From assembly GCA_002713215.1 (NCBI GenBank), contig PAVO01000020.1, forward strand, positions 1 to 64,000: a stretch of 64,000 bases of DNA, written 5' to 3'. Positions 158 to 35,113 of the stretch are shown here, one piece after another. Origin of the DNA: Crocinitomicaceae bacterium (GTDB lineage Bacteria; Bacteroidota; Bacteroidia; Flavobacteriales_G; Salibacteraceae). How positions within the stretch are numbered: the first letter of the stretch is position 1; each line of letters opens with the position of its first letter. The notes below the pieces were generated by a model. That model searched no databases and had not been told where the DNA came from. It worked only from the letters and a program-made list of their open reading frames with translations. The position numbers and the translations under genes are program-made.

Positions 158-814
158 TTAAGAATTGCCTTTCGCATAGTCGGCCAAAAATTGAGCAAGA
201 CCATTATCCGTAAGCGGATGTTTTAGTAAACCAACGATGGAAGAAAGCGGACCGGTCATTACATCTGCTCCAACTTCCGCACATTTAATTACATGCATGG
301 TATGCCTAACGGAAGCAGCTAATATTTGAGTGTCAAACATGTAGTTGTCATAAATCAATCGAATCTGTTCAATCAACTCAATTCCATCGTAAGAAACGTC
401 GTCCAGTCGTCCAATAAATGGAGAAACATAAGTAGCACCTGCTTTAGCAGCTAATAAGGCTTGTCCAGCAGAAAATACTAGCGTACAGTTGGTTTTTATT
501 CCCTTGTTAGAAAAGTACTTTAAAGCCTTTATTCCGTCTTTTATCATTGGAATTTTAACCACAATATTTTTGTGAAGTTTTGCCAATTCTTCACCTTCCC
601 GAATCATACCTTCTAAATCAGTAGCAATAACTTCTGCACTTACATCACCGTTAACTATGTTGCAGATATCTACGTAGTGTTGAATGATGTTTTCCTTTCC
701 GGTAATTCCTTCTTTCGCCATCAACGACGGATTTGTAGTAACTCCATCCAGGATTCCCAATTCTTCCGCTTCTTTTATTTGATCCAGGTTTGCAGTATCG
801 ATAAAAAACTTCAT
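158..814 (-). CDS. fsa: Transaldolase / fructose-6-phosphate aldolase (TalC/Fsa type)
   Basis: A 218-residue single-domain aldolase of the small transaldolase subfamily, a cytoplasmic TIM barrel that transfers or cleaves three-carbon units through a Schiff base. The N-terminus [16 protein letters not shown] and the TTNPSL motif near residue 26 are typical. Lys87 in NIVVKIPM is the expected Schiff-base lysine. Length matches the family (about 215-220). A likely -7 box TACATTTG lies on the minus strand at 843-850, about 28 bp before the ATG. Family members differ in whether they act as transaldolase or fructose-6-phosphate aldolase, and the sequence alone does not decide. Confidence 0.9.
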
Positions 815-950
815 GTTTCAACTCTAATTTTCAAGTGAATTGCAAATGTATTTATACCACATTGATGAATTCTCAATGTTGATAAGAAATGAAAGAAATA
901 CCATCGCAGGAACATGCAAATTGAAAGGTGTATGTTATCAGGCTTTTAAG

Positions 951-1571
951 CTAACCAATTTTAGTTCTCAAATGATTGCACAATACCTGTAACCCTTTAG
1001 TATAATGATGATTATTGGTGATAATAATATGAGCGTCATCTCGATAGGGTCTTAAATACCTTTTATAGCTCGGCATTACGTGATGTTCCCATTGGTACTT
1101 CACATCATCTTCCGGATATCCCCGTTCTTTAATGTCCCGCTTGATTCTTCGTTCCAGTTTTATGGAATCGCGTACATCAATATAAACCCGTAAATCAATA
1201 AGTTTTCTAATTTCTTCGTAATGGAAAACAAACAATCCTTCCAAAATTATAATGGAGGCTGGCTTTACCATAATTGATTTAGCGTTTTCAGGACTTACAT
1301 TAAATGTGTATTCTTTTAGCTGGATGGATTTATTGCCCATTAGTTTTAACACATCGGCATGAAAACTCGCCCGGTCAATGGATTCCGGGAGGTCAAAATT
1401 GATTTTCCCGTTTTCGTCGATCAACTGCTTTTCTTTGGGGTGATAATAGTTGTCTTGCGAAACAATTGTTACTTTCCCCAAAGGGAATTCATTTTTTAAG
1501 TCGTTAATGAAAGACGTTTTTCCCGATGCACTTCCACCTGCAATTCCAACAATGTATGGTTTGCTATTCAT
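951..1571 (-). CDS. udk: Uridine kinase
   Basis: A 206-residue cytoplasmic P-loop kinase that phosphorylates uridine and cytidine in pyrimidine salvage. The Walker A motif GGSASGKTS is at residues 12-20, and the family features SQDNYY (about 38-43), a DRPxSxD-like acceptor region and IILEGLFVF (about 107-115) follow. Length is typical. It is divergent from nothing close by and lies downstream of the SRP RNA on the same strand, separated by that RNA's terminator and a short inverted repeat. ATG start at 1571. Confidence 0.92.
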   Translation of the reverse strand: MNSKPYIVGIAGGSASGKTSFINDLKNEFPLGKVTIVSQDNYYHPKEKQLIDENGKINFDLPESIDRASFHADVLKLMGNKSIQLKEYTFNVSPENAKSIMVKPASIIILEGLFVFHYEEIRKLIDLRVYIDVRDSIKLERRIKRDIKERGYPEDDVKYQWEHHVMPSYKRYLRPYRDDAHIIITNNHHYTKGLQVLCNHLRTKIG

Positions 1572-1602
1572 GGCTGCAAAATAGAGTAAAAAACTGATGT
1601 TG

Positions 1603-1649
1603 GATATTGGATTTTCGATCTAATAATCTAATATCAAATATCCAATATC
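1603..1649. repeat. Inverted repeat GATATTGGAT / ATCCAATATC
   Basis: A perfect 10-bp inverted repeat (1603-1612 and 1640-1649) surrounds an AT-rich loop between the udk start and the SRP RNA terminator. There is no T-run beside it that would make it a terminator. It may be a remnant of a small interspersed repeat. Confidence 0.5.
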
Positions 1650-1661
1650 AGAAAAAGGACA

Positions 1662-1669
1662 CAAAAAAA
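1662..1669 (-). terminator. ffs: T-run terminator of the SRP RNA
   Basis: Seven consecutive A on the plus strand (T on the transcript strand) follow directly after the base of the long SRP RNA hairpin, which itself acts as the terminator stem. Confidence 0.7.
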
Positions 1670-1766
1670 GGGTAAGCTACTTTTATCGCACCGCTACAAC
1701 CGCCTACCCTTGCTACCTTCCGGTCCTGGGGGAATTCAGCAGGAGCTGGTCGTAAAAGACTTACCC
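1670..1766 (-). ncRNA. ffs: Signal recognition particle RNA, small bacterial type (4.5S)
   Basis: Read on the minus strand, the 97-nt region begins GGGTAAGTC and ends GTAGCTTACCC, so its ends pair. The centre holds the conserved SRP domain IV sequence CCAGGACCGGAAGGTAGCA, which includes the GGAA tetraloop and the asymmetric loop that bind Ffh. A run of seven T follows directly as terminator. The RNA scaffolds the Ffh particle for co-translational membrane targeting. Ends are assigned from the terminal pairing and the upstream promoter. Confidence 0.93.
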
Positions 1767-1771
1767 GGCTG

Positions 1772-1801
1772 CAAATGTACGCTGCTCTTTTTAAACCACA
1801 A
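1772..1801 (-). promoter_or_regulatory. Bacteroidota sigma-A promoter of the SRP RNA
   Basis: On the minus strand TTG (1799-1801), a 19-bp spacer and TACATTTG (1772-1779) match the Bacteroidota housekeeping promoter TTG-N19-TAnnTTTG exactly. The predicted start site falls about 6-7 nt later, at the base of the SRP RNA stem near 1766. Confidence 0.8.
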
Positions 1802-1893
1802 GCATAAAATGTCATAATTCGAATTTTTTAATAAACCCGGTAATATGAGGCATGTTAATTAAATTACATTTGCCCAAATAATAATTACAAAGC

Positions 1894-2448
1894 ATGAGGT
1901 TTAATAAGGATTTTGTATTGCAATTTGGTCTTCTGTACGGTCTGATAATGTCGGCGTATACACTGATTTCTTACCTGCTGGGTGTCGATTTTATGCTCAA
2001 CTGGTTTAACATTGGTTTTTCCCTGCTTTTACCTTTTGGAATTACCTATTACATCGGGGTGAAATCACGAGAAAAAAATGGAGGATTTATTACCTGGAAA
2101 GAATCCTTTATGGAGTTGTTTATGGTGTTGGCTGCGGGAATGTTTATTACCGTTGCCTTTAATTTTGTTTTAAACACAATAATAGACCCTGAATTATCAT
2201 TGAAGGTATATGACCAAACCGTAGAGAAAACCATGACCATGCTTCAAGATATGGGAAGCGATGAGGCTACGCTTGACGAAACTTACAAGCGATTTGAAGA
2301 AGGTAGAGAAGAGGTGTTGAATACCTATACCCCGATTGGGGTGATCAAAACATACTTCAGTGGTCTTTTGTTTGCCGCAATTGTGGCTGCTCTTATTGCC
2401 CTTTTTGTAAAAAGAGGAAACCCAAACCCATTCGCCGGTACCGAGTAG
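1894..2448 (+). CDS. DUF4199 domain-containing membrane protein
   Basis: A 184-residue integral membrane protein with N-terminal hydrophobic segments at about 8-28 and 35-53, another at about 72-95, and a final one near 152-170. The layout and the GxKSREKNGG loop fit DUF4199, a Bacteroidota family of unknown function. It sits 9 bp upstream of a family 2 glycosyltransferase, so the two are probably one operon. A -7 box TACATTTG lies at 1865-1872, 21 bp before the ATG. No function can be assigned from the sequence. Confidence 0.75.
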   Translation: MRFNKDFVLQFGLLYGLIMSAYTLISYLLGVDFMLNWFNIGFSLLLPFGITYYIGVKSREKNGGFITWKESFMELFMVLAAGMFITVAFNFVLNTIIDPELSLKVYDQTVEKTMTMLQDMGSDEATLDETYKRFEEGREEVLNTYTPIGVIKTYFSGLLFAAIVAALIALFVKRGNPNPFAGTE

Positions 2449-2457
2449 TTAATAATT

Positions 2458-3411
2458 ATGGATATTTCACTGGTAATTCCAGCTTATAACGAAGACGAGT
2501 CGCTGCCCGAATTAAGCGAGTGGATAGCTCGTGTTATGTTGGCCAACAACTTTTCGTATGAAGTACTTTTTATTGACGATGGAAGTACCGACAATACCTG
2601 GAGGGTTATAGAAGACTTGTCTGTGGCAAATTCATCTATTAAGGGGATTAGGTTTAGAAGAAATTACGGCAAATCGGGAGCATTAAATGTAGGGTTCGCT
2701 CAAGCCGAAGGCGATGTGGTTATTACCATGGATGCTGATCTCCAGGATAGCCCTGACGAAATCCCTGAATTGTACAAGCTGATCATGAAGGAAGGTTATG
2801 ACCTTGTTTCCGGCTGGAAAAAAGAAAGACATGATCCTTTGTCAAAAACAATTCCCACCAAGCTTTATAATTGGGCTACCCGAAAAATGAGTGGAATTTA
2901 TCTCCATGATTTTAATTGTGGATTAAAAGCCTATCGGTACGATGTAATTAAGTCGATTGAGGTATATGGTGAAATGCACCGCTATATTCCTGTACTGGCA
3001 AAACGGGCTGGATTTCCAAAAATTGGGGAGAAAGTAGTTAAACACCAGGCTCGAAAATTTGGAGAATCAAAATTTGGATTAAACCGGTTTATTAATGGAC
3101 CACTCGATTTGCTTTCCATTATGTTTGTTTCCAAATTTGGTACAAAACCCATGCATATTTTTGGTTTGCTTGGAGCACTTTTGTTTGCAGTTGGTTTTGG
3201 TGCCGCGTTTTATGTTGGAGCCGAAAAGGTTTATTATCTGTCTCAGGGCATCCCAGCAAGGTTGGTAACAACAAACCCTTTCTTTTATATTGGTTTAACA
3301 TCAATGATTTTGGGAACTCAATTATTTCTGGCAGGATTTTTAGGTGAGTTGGTGTCTAGAAATAACCCGGAACGAAACGTGTATTTGGAGAGTTCCAGGG
3401 TAGGTTGTTAA
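2458..3411 (+). CDS. Glycosyltransferase family 2 (polyprenyl-phosphate sugar synthase-like)
   Basis: A 317-residue GT-A glycosyltransferase resembling dolichyl-phosphate mannose synthases and the ArnC/GtrB group. The N-terminus DISLVIPAYNEDESL, DDGSTDNTW (about 42-50) and the catalytic DADLQDSPDE (about 92-101) are standard. Two C-terminal transmembrane segments (about 230-250 and 270-300) anchor it in the inner membrane. It probably moves a sugar from a nucleotide donor to undecaprenyl phosphate, but donor and acceptor cannot be told. It follows the DUF4199 gene by 9 bp, a common Bacteroidota pairing. Confidence 0.88.
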   Translation: MDISLVIPAYNEDESLPELSEWIARVMLANNFSYEVLFIDDGSTDNTWRVIEDLSVANSSIKGIRFRRNYGKSGALNVGFAQAEGDVVITMDADLQDSPDEIPELYKLIMKEGYDLVSGWKKERHDPLSKTIPTKLYNWATRKMSGIYLHDFNCGLKAYRYDVIKSIEVYGEMHRYIPVLAKRAGFPKIGEKVVKHQARKFGESKFGLNRFINGPLDLLSIMFVSKFGTKPMHIFGLLGALLFAVGFGAAFYVGAEKVYYLSQGIPARLVTTNPFFYIGLTSMILGTQLFLAGFLGELVSRNNPERNVYLESSRVGC

Positions 3412-3753
3412 CCACTTTAATTCTTATAGTTTCCTCAATAGTAGTCAATAATTATATTTTGTTACCTGGTTCTAGGTATCAATTTTTTATGCTAACTCCT
3501 AAACTTATTTGGGGCAGAAACATCTCCAATCGATTAGTTATTTAGATTCATTCTAAATTATTGTTTACACGAACTTAATTGTTATTTGATTACTGTCGTA
3601 AGTGATTGTTATACAGGTGTATATAAAGAGTCCGTTGTTATGTTTTCATCTCCATAAAAAAAATGGCCTAAACTTCCTTTTAACAAGAATTTAAAAATGA
3701 TTTTAAAGACTAAATTTGCGCGAAATTTTTTGAGAGGTATTAAAATATCTTAA
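3412..3753. other. Intergenic region upstream of nqrA
   Basis: This 342-bp AT-rich gap has no convincing open reading frame or RNA. No strong terminator hairpin was seen after the glycosyltransferase gene. The only recognisable signal is the -7 box of the nqr promoter near its right end. Confidence 0.6.
3711..3718 (+). promoter_or_regulatory. Putative -7 box of the nqr operon
   Basis: TAAATTTG fits the Bacteroidota -7 consensus TAnnTTTG and lies 35 bp before the nqrA ATG. No clear TTG -33 element is seen at the usual distance, so the promoter may be weak or helped by an activator. Confidence 0.5.
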
Positions 3754-5091
3754 ATGGGACAAAACATCAAGATACGCAGAGGTGTTGATATCAAATTGAA
3801 TGGGGCCGCTGATCAAAAAAGTAGCCCGACCTCAACATCGACTGTTGCCATTAAACCCACAGATTTTCACAATTTAATCCCCAAGTTGGTTGTAAAACAA
3901 GGTGACACCGTTAAAGCTGGTTCTCCAATTTTTTACGATAAGCTACACCCGGAAATGCAGTTTGTTTCTCCAGTTTCAGGAGAAATTGCTGAGGTTATTC
4001 GTGGAGAAAAGAGGCGGATTTTGGAAGTCAGGGTATTGGCGGATAAAGAAACAGTATTCGAAACACACGATGTTAGCAATGCATCCAATTCAGATGCAAC
4101 TGCTATTAAAGAATTGCTTTTGAAAAGTGGTAATTGGCCGCTAATCAAACAAAGGCCATTTGACATCGTTGCTGATCCGGGTAAATCGCCAAAGGCTATT
4201 TTTGTGTCAGCGTTCGACTCTGCTCCACTAGCACCGGATTATAACTTCATCCTTAAAGATAGAGGAGAAGATCTCCAAACGGGAATAGACGCTTTAGCTA
4301 AATTAACAGCTGGTAAAGTTCAGGTTGTTACAGCTACCAATGCCGGGGTTTTTGGAAGTTTAAAAAACTGCGAAAGGCATGTTGTAAACGGTCCTCACCC
4401 TGCGGGAAATGTTGGAGTTCAAATCCACAACATAGATCCTGTAAATAAAGGTGAGCAGGTATGGGTGGTCAACCCACAAGATCTGGCTGCTATGGGTTCT
4501 TTCTTAAGAACCGGTAAAATTGATATTAATCGTACTGTTGCATTAACAGGGAGTGAAGTAAAAGCTCCTCAATACTTTAACGTAACCTTAGGAACGGCGG
4601 TAGAGGCTTTAACTAAAGGAAACCTAAATGATGGGGGTCTTCGTGTTATTTCTGGTAATGTATTAACCGGCGATAACGTTGGAGGAAAAGGTTACTTAGG
4701 GTTTTATCATCACCAGGTAACTGTAATTCCGGAAGACGACGAACCTGAATTTTTTGGTTGGATTGCTCCCGGATTGAATAAATTCTCACTTTCCAGAACG
4801 TTTTTCTCCTGGTTAACTCCTAATAAAAAGTATAACCTTGGTACAAGTCAACATGGTGAAGAGAGAGCCTTTGTAATGAGCGGGGAATATGAAAAAGTAT
4901 TTCCATTTGATATTTATCCGGTTCAATTGCTTAAATCCATGTTGGTGAAGGATATTGATGCCATGGAGAGTCTGGGAGTATATGAGGTTGCGCCTGAAGA
5001 TTTCGCTTTGTGCGAATTTGGATGTACTTCAAAAATTGATGTTCAGGAAATTGTAAGAGAAGGACTAGATCTTATTCAAAAAGAATGCTGA
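3754..5091 (+). CDS. nqrA: Na+-translocating NADH:quinone reductase subunit A
   Basis: A 445-residue soluble peripheral subunit of the Na+-pumping NADH:quinone reductase on the cytoplasmic face. The N-terminal region IKIRRGVDIKLNGAA and the barrel-sandwich segment around residues 45-85 (VKQGDTVKAGSPIF, SPVSGEIAEV) are typical. The C-terminal half carries the conserved Cys-containing segment ALCEFGCTSKIDVQEIVREG. Length matches the family. It is the first gene of nqrABCDEF and its TGA is followed after 1 bp by the nqrB ATG, which implies translational coupling. Confidence 0.97.
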   Translation: MGQNIKIRRGVDIKLNGAADQKSSPTSTSTVAIKPTDFHNLIPKLVVKQGDTVKAGSPIFYDKLHPEMQFVSPVSGEIAEVIRGEKRRILEVRVLADKETVFETHDVSNASNSDATAIKELLLKSGNWPLIKQRPFDIVADPGKSPKAIFVSAFDSAPLAPDYNFILKDRGEDLQTGIDALAKLTAGKVQVVTATNAGVFGSLKNCERHVVNGPHPAGNVGVQIHNIDPVNKGEQVWVVNPQDLAAMGSFLRTGKIDINRTVALTGSEVKAPQYFNVTLGTAVEALTKGNLNDGGLRVISGNVLTGDNVGGKGYLGFYHHQVTVIPEDDEPEFFGWIAPGLNKFSLSRTFFSWLTPNKKYNLGTSQHGEERAFVMSGEYEKVFPFDIYPVQLLKSMLVKDIDAMESLGVYEVAPEDFALCEFGCTSKIDVQEIVREGLDLIQKEC

Positions 5092-5092
5092 T

Positions 5093-6247
5093 ATGAAATT
5101 GTTTAAGAATTTATTTGACAGCTTGAGACCTCCCTTCGAAAAAGGTGGGAAGTTTGAAAAACTATGGCCGCTACTTGATGGGTTTGAAACTTTCATGTTT
5201 GTCCCCGGTCATTCAACCAAGAAAGGGGCTCATATTCGTGATGGTATCGACCTTAAAAGAACCATGATTACCGTTGTAATTGCTCTTGTACCATGTTTAC
5301 TATTTGGTATGTGGAATGTTGGCCATCAGCATTTTTTGGCCGTGGGTCAGGATGCCGAACTCATGGAAAAATTCATTTATGGAGCTATAAAAGTTCTTCC
5401 CCTGGTAATTGTTTCCTATGGAGTTGGTTTAGGTGTAGAGTTTATTTTCTGTATTAAAAACGGACATTCAATTCAAGAAGGGTTTTTGGTTTCAGGAATG
5501 CTTATTCCATTGATCATGCCTGTAGAGGTTCCTCTTTGGATGGTTGCTATAGCCACTGCTTTTGCCGTAGTATTTGGTAAAGAAGTATTTGGTGGAACAG
5601 GAATGAACATACTAAATCCGGCGCTTACAGCAAGGGCCTTTTTGTTTTTTGCCTATCCTACTAAAATGAGTGGTAACTCTGTTTGGGTAGCTACTGATGG
5701 AATGGCGACGGTTGATGGATTTACCGGTGCAACCGCTTTGGGTAATGCAGTTGAAAAAGGAATGGCAGGTGTTCCACCTTACATGGATTCAATTATGGGT
5801 TGGATTCCCGGATCAATTGGAGAAACTTCGGTTATCGCAATTTTAATTGGTGCCGGCGTCCTTATTTATTCCGGAATTGGAAGCTGGAGAATTATGTTGT
5901 CCATGCTAATAGGTGGGTATGTAATGGGAATGATTTTCAATGCTTGGGAAGCCAATGCATACATGCAAATTCCTGCACATCACCAGTTAATGCTTGGTGG
6001 ATTTTTCTTTGGTATGGTGTTTATGGCCACCGACCCTGTTAGTGCATCACAAACGGCTACAGGTAAATGGATCTACGGGTTTTTCTGTGGACTCCTGGGT
6101 ATCCTGATTCGGGTGGTTAATCCAGCCTATCCTGAGGGAATTATGATGGCTATCTTATTCATGAATGTAATGGCGCCATTAATTGATCACTATGTGATTC
6201 AGGCAAATATTAATAAACGTCTAAAACGTGCTAAAGTAGCAGCTTAA
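5093..6247 (+). CDS. nqrB: Na+-translocating NADH:quinone reductase subunit B
   Basis: A 384-residue polytopic membrane subunit with about ten hydrophobic segments. It holds a covalent FMN and riboflavin and forms part of the Na+ path. The flavinylation motif DGFTGAT is at residues 208-214, so Thr214 is the predicted FMN attachment site, to be modified by the ApbE encoded downstream. KEVFGGTGMNILNPAL near 163-178 is typical. The first approximately 50 residues are a cytoplasmic extension as in other NqrB proteins. Confidence 0.97.
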   Translation: MKLFKNLFDSLRPPFEKGGKFEKLWPLLDGFETFMFVPGHSTKKGAHIRDGIDLKRTMITVVIALVPCLLFGMWNVGHQHFLAVGQDAELMEKFIYGAIKVLPLVIVSYGVGLGVEFIFCIKNGHSIQEGFLVSGMLIPLIMPVEVPLWMVAIATAFAVVFGKEVFGGTGMNILNPALTARAFLFFAYPTKMSGNSVWVATDGMATVDGFTGATALGNAVEKGMAGVPPYMDSIMGWIPGSIGETSVIAILIGAGVLIYSGIGSWRIMLSMLIGGYVMGMIFNAWEANAYMQIPAHHQLMLGGFFFGMVFMATDPVSASQTATGKWIYGFFCGLLGILIRVVNPAYPEGIMMAILFMNVMAPLIDHYVIQANINKRLKRAKVAA

Positions 6248-23589: not shown

Positions 23590-25089
23590 TTATCTAACCA
23601 TTATTTTCTGAGAGTATTTACTGCTTTTGCCAATTGCAATAATAAAATGCAAGCCGGTTGATATTGAATGAGGAAGAACTATTTGGTTCTGTTCCGGGTT
23701 TTCATACTCCCAAACAACCTGACCGGATAAAGTAACAATTTGAAGTCGTTGCAAGTCATCTCCCTCAAGTTCAAAGGTTAGTGGTTGCTCTCTAGAGGTT
23801 AGTGTAGGGTATACTTTAAAACGACCTCCTATATCAATAGAATGTTTTCTGGCTGGTATATGAACAATATCGGAGAAATCTTTTTTACCATCGAAATCAA
23901 TATTTTTTAATCTATAGTACAGGTCAATATTTTCATTTGGTTGAAAATCTTTAAACCCATATTCGATAAGTTCATTTGAATTACCTGCACCTTTTATACT
24001 ACCAATGTATTCAAAGTATTCTCCATTGTAGGAGCGCTCAATTTCAAATCGCGCATTATTTATTTCACTAAGCGTTATCCAATATAGGTGGATATAACTT
24101 CCTATTCTGCTTGCTTCGAAAATACCAATTTCAATGGGGAGTGGGCCATTGCAATTTGTATTATAGGTGATAGATCCCTGAGATGTACTTCCATTATTAT
24201 AATTGTTATCATTATTTGCATTGCACATGCATAAGGTGCCAGATCCTGACAAGGTAACATCACTATCGACGTCAAAATCGTTGTCGCCTTCGGTACCATC
24301 ATCATCACATAAATTTAACACACCCGTAATTGAAATTACAGCGTCATCCTCGAATTCAATATCGTCCTCCACATTGAATGTGCCTACATTGGAGAAATTT
24401 GCATCATCCTTTACTTTTAAATCATTTCTAACGGTAAAATCTGCTCCGAGTGCATTGGTCAATGATGCATCATCTTTAACTTCAACATTTTCCGTTGCAG
24501 TAAAAGTACCACTGTTGGTAAGGATGCCATCATCTTCTACTTTTACCTCCTTCACCGAAGTAACTGCGCCGGAATTAGCGGTTACTTGCCCGTCATCTTT
24601 GATTTTTAATTCATCGGATAAGGTTAGTTCTCCATTAATGGTAAGAACTCCGTCATCTTTGATTTCAATTTTTTTACCTGAGAAAGAAGAACCACTGCCA
24701 ATTGTAAGATTGCCGTTATCTTCAACCTTCAAATCGTCAGTAACCGTTGTTGACCCGTTTAGTACAGCGGTACCTTTTATCTTATCAATTTTTTTGATTG
24801 ATATTGTCCCATTATTAGTAAGTGTTCCACCAGATTTAACTTCCTTTATTTCCTTGCTTCCCGTTAGACTTGCACCAGAATTTATTATTAAGGTTCCCTC
24901 TATTTCAATATCATCATCTAATGTAATCGTTCCGGTAATGGTTATCTGGTCAGAGGAGCCTATTGTGGTTCCTGGGTAGGAAGGAGACCATGTTCCACTT
25001 GTATAATTACCACTTCCCGAAAGCGTATAGTTTGTTGCCCATAGACTGGAATTAAATACCAGCAATAGTATTAAGTGAAGGGGTTTCAT
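23590..25089 (-). CDS. Repeat-rich secreted protein with T9SS sorting domain
   Basis: A 499-residue secreted protein. After the signal peptide (about 1-19), residues about 57-262 hold at least six repeats of 20-22 residues of the pattern [IV]-[EK]-D-D-G-x-L-T-x-x-G-x-[FL]-x-[VA]-x-[DEN]-x-[IVL]-[EK]. Such Thr/Gly/Asp-rich ladders suggest a beta-solenoid. An Asp/Asn-rich, Cys-bearing stretch follows (about 272-320), then a beta-sandwich region and a T9SS type A C-terminal domain ending KIMVR. It is probably exported to the cell surface. Binding partner unknown. The repeats remain visible at DNA level, which suggests recent expansion. Confidence 0.75.
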   Translation of the reverse strand: MKPLHLILLLVFNSSLWATNYTLSGSGNYTSGTWSPSYPGTTIGSSDQITITGTITLDDDIEIEGTLIINSGASLTGSKEIKEVKSGGTLTNNGTISIKKIDKIKGTAVLNGSTTVTDDLKVEDNGNLTIGSGSSFSGKKIEIKDDGVLTINGELTLSDELKIKDDGQVTANSGAVTSVKEVKVEDDGILTNSGTFTATENVEVKDDASLTNALGADFTVRNDLKVKDDANFSNVGTFNVEDDIEFEDDAVISITGVLNLCDDDGTEGDNDFDVDSDVTLSGSGTLCMCNANNDNNYNNGSTSQGSITYNTNCNGPLPIEIGIFEASRIGSYIHLYWITLSEINNARFEIERSYNGEYFEYIGSIKGAGNSNELIEYGFKDFQPNENIDLYYRLKNIDFDGKKDFSDIVHIPARKHSIDIGGRFKVYPTLTSREQPLTFELEGDDLQRLQIVTLSGQVVWEYENPEQNQIVLPHSISTGLHFIIAIGKSSKYSQKIMVR

Positions 25090-25310: not shown

Positions 25311-26365
25311 TTAATTCTGAAAAGCCATCCAGTTTCGGTTTACAACAGAATCGGCTTCCATTAGACGTATTACTTCGTCAGCAACATCGTCCGAAAGTTC
25401 CAAATGAGTTGTAAACCCAACACAGGAAGCATTTATTTCACCTAATACATAGGTATCCTTATCCGTATCCAGAATAAAATCTGCAGTCCAGATTAAAGGG
25501 ATATCATAGTTCCCCAGCTTTTCGCGAATTAATGGAATACTGCCCTGAACAATATTTATTAGATCGGGCCATTTATCGGGTGATTCATACCGGTATTTGG
25601 CTCCTGAAAAAAGAGTTGCCGAGAAGGCGTCAGGACCAGATGCTGGCTTTTTATGCACCACATTCATGGTCTTATCTCTAAGCATAAAAACCCGTATTTC
25701 ACCTTCGGTAATTCGTTCCAGAAAAGGCATGTCTAATAGCATCCCATTTTCACCATCGAGGTATTGTACACAGAAATCAATGAATTCGCCAAGTTCCCAT
25801 TCTTCTACATGGTTGTCCTTGGCTTCAGTACATTTTACCTTGGTTTTAAGCGGGATTTCTTTTTTATTCCCAATTTCACCTATGGTTTCAACCCTCCAAA
25901 TACCTTCGCCAGTAGATCCTCTGTTTTGTTTTAATACCCGAACTCCTTTAGCCAGTGTTTTAGGAAAGTTGAATTTAAAGGTTTCAAAATCATAGTAGGT
26001 ATAGACATCTCTAGGCACCAGCGATGTTCCCCTAAGTTTCTCAACGGCATTTTTAGCACCGTAGTTAACCATGGCATCAGGGTGTGGTAACCCTTCAAGG
26101 CCATTTTTGCATAGTTCTCTGAGCATTTGGAAGTAGCCCACTTCAGAAGGTAAATTATCCGGATTTACCCGGCTAATATAAGCTCCAGCATTTTTTACAC
26201 AATGGCGATAAATTTCACCACGATCTTCATCGGAATAAAAAATAATTTCAGAAGTCCAACCCTTTTTTTCAAGGAATCAATAATCGGTTTAGAATCTTTA
26301 CGATAGCCATACGGACCTTTATCAGAGCCGCCACGAACCTCGAAAATAACAACGTGCGTTTTCAT
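25311..26365 (-). pseudogene. ATP-grasp-like protein (Cj0069-type family) split by a frameshift
   Basis: Two reading frames make one protein. The first starts at ATG 26365 (MKTHVVIFEVRGGSDKGPY...) and loses frame after PIIDSLKK at a run of seven T on the plus strand (26263-26269). Adding one base restores KGWTSEIIFYSDEDRGEIYR, then ...SEVGYFQMLREL, joining the long frame that ends at 25311. The restored product would be about 351 residues. Features such as RVLKQNRGSTGEG, EIRVFML and YVLGEINASCVGF resemble ATP-grasp carboxylate-amine ligases, with the ENxxSC-like metal site. It may be a real mutation, a slippage site or a sequencing error. The downstream part alone reads as a 276-residue frame from 26141. 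Confidence 0.8.
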
Positions 26366-26544
26366 TTTTAAATTAATGTTTAACAATATCTTTTTTCTAA
26401 TTCCTTACTAAGTAACAGACTAAAAACTAGAAATGAAATAACATTACAAACATCTGATTATGACATCAATTCACTTTAAAAACTAATGGCTGTCAGTTCA
26501 CGGATTCCACTACTTTTGATCACTTGTCTAAAGACCTCTTAACG

Positions 26545-27258
26545 ATGAAAAAATTGCTTCTGCTTAGTAACTCTTCCATACCTTCAGAATCTTATTTTAA
26601 CTGGGGAAAACCCTTTCTGAAGGATTTCCTTGGCGAAGAAAGGAAAACCGTATTATTTGTGCCTTATGCGGGTGTTACGATGTCATTTAGTGAATATACT
26701 GAAACGGTTAAGAAAGTATACAACGAAATGGGGCATGACCTGGTTGGAATTCATGAATTTGATGATCCGCAAAAGGCCATCGAAGAATGCGAGGCATTGG
26801 CAGTTGGTGGTGGAAATACCTTTAGATTGTTTCAATTACTCCACGAAAACGAATTAATAGAAACCATTAATTCCAGAATTGAAGCAGGTATGCCCTATAT
26901 GGGTTGGAGTGCTGGTAGCAACACAGCTTGCCCGTTTTTATTTACAACCAATGATATGCCTATAGTACAACCTAAAAGCTTTAATGGATTGGGGCAAATT
27001 CCATTTCAGTTAAATGTTCATTATACAAATGCATCAATACCAGGTCATGGCGGAGAAACCAGGGACATGCGTTTGACCGAATACCTGGTACTTCAGGAGA
27101 CTCCATTAGTTGGGTTGAGAGAGTGTTCTCTTATAGAAATTCAAGGGGATCAATATTATTTGAAGGGTAGGGGTAACACTATGAAACTATTTAGGTCCAA
27201 CGGCAATCACCAGGAAATCCCGGAAGGTAGGTTTGATCCTGCCGAATGGGCTGAATAA
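26545..27258 (+). CDS. pepE: Dipeptidase E (peptidase family S51)
   Basis: A 237-residue cytoplasmic serine peptidase that cleaves Asp-Xaa dipeptides. GWSAGSN places the nucleophile at Ser122, close to the Ser120 of E. coli PepE. VGGGNTFRLFQLL and the region FNGLGQIPFQLNVHYTN with its His fit the family. ATG 26545 is preferred; an upstream in-frame TTG (26524) adds seven residues not typical of PepE. A -7 box TACTTTTG lies at 26511-26518. Confidence 0.93.
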   Translation: MKKLLLLSNSSIPSESYFNWGKPFLKDFLGEERKTVLFVPYAGVTMSFSEYTETVKKVYNEMGHDLVGIHEFDDPQKAIEECEALAVGGGNTFRLFQLLHENELIETINSRIEAGMPYMGWSAGSNTACPFLFTTNDMPIVQPKSFNGLGQIPFQLNVHYTNASIPGHGGETRDMRLTEYLVLQETPLVGLRECSLIEIQGDQYYLKGRGNTMKLFRSNGNHQEIPEGRFDPAEWAE

Positions 27259-34010: not shown

Positions 34011-35113
34011 AAAGCCTCGTTTAGCGTGATGTAAAACTCTTCGTAGTGATCGCCTCTTGCATAATCCAGGCGAATGTGAATACGTTCTTTTTTATTGAAT
34101 GCAAGACGTAGCCCCGCTCCATAGCTTGGGCGCAAATATTCAGTTGAAAAATTGCTGAATTTATCAGCCACACCACCGGTACCGACAAAGGCAGTAAACC
34201 CAAAAAAGTGCCAGATTGGCGTTCGGTATTCAAGCTGAACTGCTGTCATTAGTTGATCCCTGTAGGTTCCTTTTTTGTAACCCCTCATAATTTTACTTCC
34301 TCCCAGTTGAGCCATTCGGTTAAAAGGTGTATTTCCAAAATTGAATTCGGAATAACTCTGAGCAGCAAGTACGTGATTTTTACCCAGGTTGTAATACAGC
34401 CTCGCGTCAATATCAAAATGGTTGAAGTCGAAATCGCTGCCTACAATTTTGTCAAATGCCAAAAGACCGGTTCTCAGGTAGTATCCCTTTCTGGGGGCAT
34501 AGACATTGTCTCGTCCATCGATTCTGACTTCCCAGCCAATTGCATTGGCTAATCCTCCCTGGCTTCCGGGAACAATTCCCGAATCAAGAAGTCCTCCCTG
34601 AGCTACCTCTTCCATGGTTGTATTCTGTAAAAAGACCCTGGGCCCCGTGTACCAGTTTTTCCAGACTTTTTGCATAGCGGCTAATTGAATTCTTGGGAAA
34701 CTTGCCACGTAATCTTCACTGTACCTCAATGGAAACTCATTTCCTACTCCTGAAAAGAAATAGGGGTAATTGTAGTAAGCAACTTCACCCAGAATTCGAA
34801 ACTTATCCTTTTTGAAGTAGAGATTAAAGGGTGCCTGAAACAGAATTTGGTCGTTCATGGTATAAGCAAATGACATGCTGGCATTCGACATTGGGGAAAT
34901 GGTGTCCTCATTGTTGAATCTAAAAAAACCTATTGCCACAGCCCCAAATGCCCACCGTGTTTCCGGTGTGTAATAGATGCTGGGTAAAACCACAAATTTT
35001 CGCTCTTTTTCAAGATCGATCAAGGGTTTTTTCTTTTGAGAATATGAATTGAGGGGAATAAATGCTCCCAGTAAAAGCCCTATAATCAATAAGTATGTGC
35101 TTATATATTTCAA
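34007..35113 (-). CDS. BamA/TamA-family outer membrane beta-barrel protein
   Basis: A 368-residue outer-membrane protein with a signal peptide (about 1-26, ending NSYSQ). The rest alternates as amphipathic strands and ends in FYITLNEAF, with the C-terminal Phe favoured for barrel insertion. GGSKIMRGYKKGTYRDQ near residues 279-296 is like the VRGF/Y loop motif of Omp85 barrels. There are no POTRA domains, so it is a short Omp85-like or surface-antigen form. Its stop overlaps the sialidase-like gene's stop by 4 bp, and its ATG overlaps the Nudix gene by 4 bp. Confidence 0.82.
   Translation of the reverse strand: MKYISTYLLIIGLLLGAFIPLNSYSQKKKPLIDLEKERKFVVLPSIYYTPETRWAFGAVAIGFFRFNNEDTISPMSNASMSFAYTMNDQILFQAPFNLYFKKDKFRILGEVAYYNYPYFFSGVGNEFPLRYSEDYVASFPRIQLAAMQKVWKNWYTGPRVFLQNTTMEEVAQGGLLDSGIVPGSQGGLANAIGWEVRIDGRDNVYAPRKGYYLRTGLLAFDKIVGSDFDFNHFDIDARLYYNLGKNHVLAAQSYSEFNFGNTPFNRMAQLGGSKIMRGYKKGTYRDQLMTAVQLEYRTPIWHFFGFTAFVGTGGVADKFSNFSTEYLRPSYGAGLRLAFNKKERIHIRLDYARGDHYEEFYITLNEAF

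Follow-up and report, generated by a model that had tools for sequence, protein, structure and literature searches.

A one-base frame break near the start of a Cj0069-family gene in a draft Crocinitomicaceae genome, consistent with recent loss of function

We analysed a window of 64,000 nucleotides (positions 1 to 64,000 of contig PAVO01000020.1, assembly GCA_002713215.1, Crocinitomicaceae bacterium) and identified on its minus strand a gene of the Cj0069 family that is divided between two reading frames by a deficit of one base. This frame break is real in the sequence as given. We consider it moderately probable that it represents a recent loss-of-function mutation by one lost base. The case is that of an ordinary broken gene, or of a rare reading error, and involves no new mechanism. 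The features that we assigned are listed below.

26264..26365, minus strand: N-terminal 34 codons of the Cj0069-family gene, read from the ATG at 26365 (NF033816 positions 1–31, E 8.6e-4; identity to homologues 50–85%)
26195..26263, minus strand: out-of-frame tail, closed by a stop at codon 57
26260..26269, minus strand: tract of CCC plus seven T (on the coding strand seven A, then GGG) with a one-base deficit (spacing 8 nt, against 9 nt in 13/13 homologues)
25311..26276, minus strand: remaining part of the gene, read in the second frame through its stop codon and free of internal stops; Cj0069 family with DUF6815 domain
25311..26141, minus strand: possible shortened product from an internal GTG (26141), 276 amino acids, without about the first 79 residues

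The frame opened by the ATG at 26365 runs into a stop at codon 57. Its first 34 codons (26365–26264) resemble the N terminus of Cj0069-family proteins, with 50–85% identity to the same region of 13 homologues and a profile-search match to positions 1–31 of the NCBIfam model NF033816 (E 8.6e-4). The second minus-strand frame extends from 26276 down to a stop at 25311, spanning 321 codons without an internal stop, and, when scanned as a whole with NF033816, it matches positions 30–333 of the 334 in the model (E 1e-120, 403.4 bits). The window gene exceeds the curated NF033816 cut-off (150 bits), and the product from the internal GTG scores 358.4 bits. By these matches the two pieces cover the model from head to tail, far beyond chance. 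Both pieces match the Cj0069 family in order, and the window differs from that family in the break of the reading frame between them: an uninterrupted full-length frame of about 350 residues is absent, and frames of 56 and 321 codons stand unjoined.

The site of the break contains a run of seven T at 26263–26269 on the plus strand, with CCC (26260–26262) immediately before it. The distance from a conserved leucine (or equivalent) codon to the Gly-Trp codons is 9 nt in all 13 homologues measured and 8 nt in the window; the gene start was located in 13 of the 14 homologue loci, and L074, in which the start pattern did not match, stands outside this count. The original prediction had described two frames of one protein, between 25311 and 26365, broken by the loss of one base; both coordinates are correct, and the loss is borne out by the homologues, each one base longer at this point. 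The same prediction assigned the loss to the T homopolymer, which we find unsupported. By the spacing, the missing base lies in the T run or in the adjoining CCC, so that the deficit is placed to within ten bases, and the residue preceding Gly-Trp leans towards the CCC side because it is arginine in all nine close homologues (L003–L005 and L007–L012), which loss from the C run fits better. This placement is not proof because arginine and lysine both occur in the family: four distant homologues (L006 and L071–L073) have lysine at this position, and the distant homologue L074 has arginine. A run of seven at the site was found in none of 13 homologues. Placing a lost base in the longest run nearby can therefore mislead, as conserved residues here lean to the adjacent one.

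The remainder of the gene appears uneroded. Over alignment columns 36–330, the window departs from the other rows at 1 of the 114 columns that are invariant in them, whereas the 12 intact homologues show 0 to 10 departures (L012, whose record stops inside the gene, was omitted from this count and from the tree below). Together with the second frame free of internal stops, this bears out the earlier claim that the downstream sequence is intact. In the 34-codon start, a nearly invariant alanine is replaced by valine. Because the rest of the gene is uneroded, the loss looks recent; this state fits a recent mutation and an error alike. In the 4171-base locus around the gene we identified no match to the Bacteroidota-type promoter consensus.

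The downstream frame contains a full-length match to DUF6815 (Pfam PF20668, E 3.2e-34), and the window shows no difference from the family within this domain. Weak matches to Pfam GSH-S_ATP, the ATP-grasp domain of glutathione synthetase, were found in 4 of 14 family members (best E 5.6e-5). The gene had originally been called ATP-grasp-like: the weak matches in other members speak for that description, but the window protein itself matches DUF6815 alone and not GSH-S_ATP. By this distant resemblance the window gene plausibly encodes an ATP-grasp-type ligase. Sequence searches of the PDB returned no solved structure, and a structure model of an intact homologue (mean pLDDT 50.3) was too poor for a fold search. 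The family is widespread but little studied. A literature search for DUF6815 returned no papers; the literature text available describes Cj0069 in one place as a hypothetical protein and in another as an antigen, and it is reportedly named as a secretory antigen in the title of one paper.

Matches were found in 5 of 60 genomes in the protein search (the window's own genome counted), and the family is present in 4 of 59 relatives when that genome is excluded. Across the phylum, 5 of 395 genomes lie above the family cut-off, again counting the genome itself. This patchy distribution makes the family probably dispensable. Neither DNA nor protein searches identified a second copy of the gene in the genome. 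Six further loci, from Planctomycetota, came from a scan of genome contigs. In a tree of 14 rows the window copy falls within a supported group of nine that mixes Planctomycetota with rows from the same taxonomic family; branching inside this group was unresolved, and for that reason we make no claim of horizontal transfer for the window copy. Another genome of that taxonomic family (G003) carries a Cj0069-family copy from a distant branch.

A consensus or assembly error, in which the organism has an intact gene and the assembled sequence lost a base at two adjoining runs that together span ten bases, is a reasonable possibility, although short of probable. The absence of visible decay in the rest of the gene agrees with it. 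The genome comprises 56 contigs, has no 16S match and carries an estimated contamination of 4.39%; the last two are common in metagenome-assembled genomes, and all three suggest a metagenome assembly, in which one consensus base may reflect a mixture of strains. In the available text of the GeneTack survey, unique homology-validated frameshifts are expected to be mainly sequencing errors and not genuine indels; the present site resembles its singleton frameshift genes in having a unique frame change bridged by homologues, but the survey covered the complete genomes of the year 2010, whereas the window belongs to a draft assembly (PMC3711429). Against an error stands the rest of the assembly. 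We ran a home-made coding model that allows frame changes over the window and 38 other stretches of this genome, 791,651 bases in all, and, for comparison, over 400,000 bases from G001, a one-contig relative, which gave 130 and 36 raw calls, respectively. All but three of the 130 had a gene-junction explanation; the exceptions were the present site, one call by masked sequence and one where an intact ORF of 314 amino acids ends. Nine of the 130 lay close to an A/T run at least seven long (0/36 in G001), and eight of these nine fit gene junctions, lying at most 75 bases from both an upstream-frame stop and a downstream-frame start. The one of the eight that was checked singly, a high-scoring call by a run of seven T in stretch L023, reflected the overlap of two long ORFs. 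Another high-scoring call, at window position 34023, marked the end of an intact 368-amino-acid ORF. Calls outside junctions with a gain of at least 8 numbered two in 792 kb here, neither of them a broken run, against one in 400 kb of G001. Within 604,185 coding bases (ORFs of at least 100 codons) A/T runs of at least seven number 217 (184 of exactly seven), yet a further clear break at a run of this kind did not emerge from the 792-kb scan under a strict filter that recovers about 37% of planted lesions. When single-base deletions were planted in runs in the middle of genes, 207 of 216 were noticed within 75 bases before filtering (208 on repeat), and 79 of 216 passed the junction filter; for deletions planted 30–40 codons from the gene start, as here, the figures were 170 and 71 of 297. 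The present site has a gain of 4.9, against a median of 3.2 for planted early lesions. Breakage at runs is thus not widespread in this assembly, and the scan leaves room for a handful more.

Three other explanations were considered. Phase variation, in which the run would switch length reversibly and turn the gene on and off, had been offered originally beside a recent lesion and an assembly error; the choice between the latter two stands, and phase variation we judge extremely unlikely. A change of one base in the run would suffice to switch the frame, but the length is ordinary, coding sequence holding 184 A/T runs of exactly seven; in the homologues such a run is absent from the site; and the lost base possibly lies outside the T run. 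The run is likewise not the hypermutable tract, long for its genome, that characterises contingency genes, seven being common here. Programmed ribosomal frameshifting at the A run appears just as improbable. The canonical motif for such shifts is A AAA AAG; the seven A would accompany a minus-one change of frame, but the incoming frame reads AAA AAA AGG, and 13 homologues are read in a single frame with no shift. The sole rescue worth naming is slippage of RNA polymerase on the seven coding-strand A, by which part of the mRNA would encode the full-length protein, and even this we regard as quite unlikely. The one-base deficit adjoins a run of A, as in disrupted genes for which slippage has been proposed where they contain slippage-prone runs (PMC1088944, in its available text) and in the rescue described from insect endosymbionts (the portion available of PMC3017870). 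The window differs from these systems, as far as the accessible text of both papers describes them, in that its run is of seven and not of nine or more and in that the placement of the deficit within the run is uncertain. In many genomes selection against slippage is evident at length nine (PMC1088944, available text). Moreover, seven-base runs are common inside intact genes here, and the run is not conserved at the site (0/13 homologues). That the short run is real and fixed, with slippage at only seven A yielding full-length protein in amounts that keep the gene under selection, is very improbable; if true, it would lower the run length thought to be needed for rescue in a large-genome bacterium.

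The reading that we prefer remains recent loss of function. One base would have been lost about 34 codons into an ordinary Cj0069-family gene, translation would end at codon 57, and the full-length protein would be missing from the lineage that was sequenced or, if a population was assembled, from its majority strain. Re-initiation at the internal GTG (26141) could yield 276 residues, a product unlikely to work because the missing stretch of about 79 residues holds many of the conserved positions of the family. We infer a genuine mutation, in preference to a consensus error, and a gene that no longer functions. Counting against this reading is the recovery of the strict filter (79/216), with which a modest number of other errors may be present in the assembly. 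If real, the break would be a further recent loss of a gene that is patchy in distribution and probably dispensable. Its main lesson is one of caution in annotation, where gene prediction will either miss the gene or report a shortened protein that starts internally.

Several observations concern other parts of the sequences analysed. A divergent neighbour at 26524–27258 on the plus strand, beginning some 160 bases away from the start codon of the broken gene, encodes a putative peptidase E-type (S51) protein. On the minus strand at 23590–25089 lies an ORF of 499 amino acids that contains short repeats enriched in D, G, T and S and has a C-terminal tail resembling a secretion sorting domain. 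Stretch L023 contains, at 349–5468 on its minus strand, ORFs of 1262 and 456 amino acids that overlap by 40 bases; the 456-amino-acid protein is AAA ATPase-like, and the pair is reminiscent of part of a contractile injection cluster. The window also carries, at 1666–1773 on the minus strand, a small SRP RNA of Bacteroidales type (RF04183, 109.6 bits).
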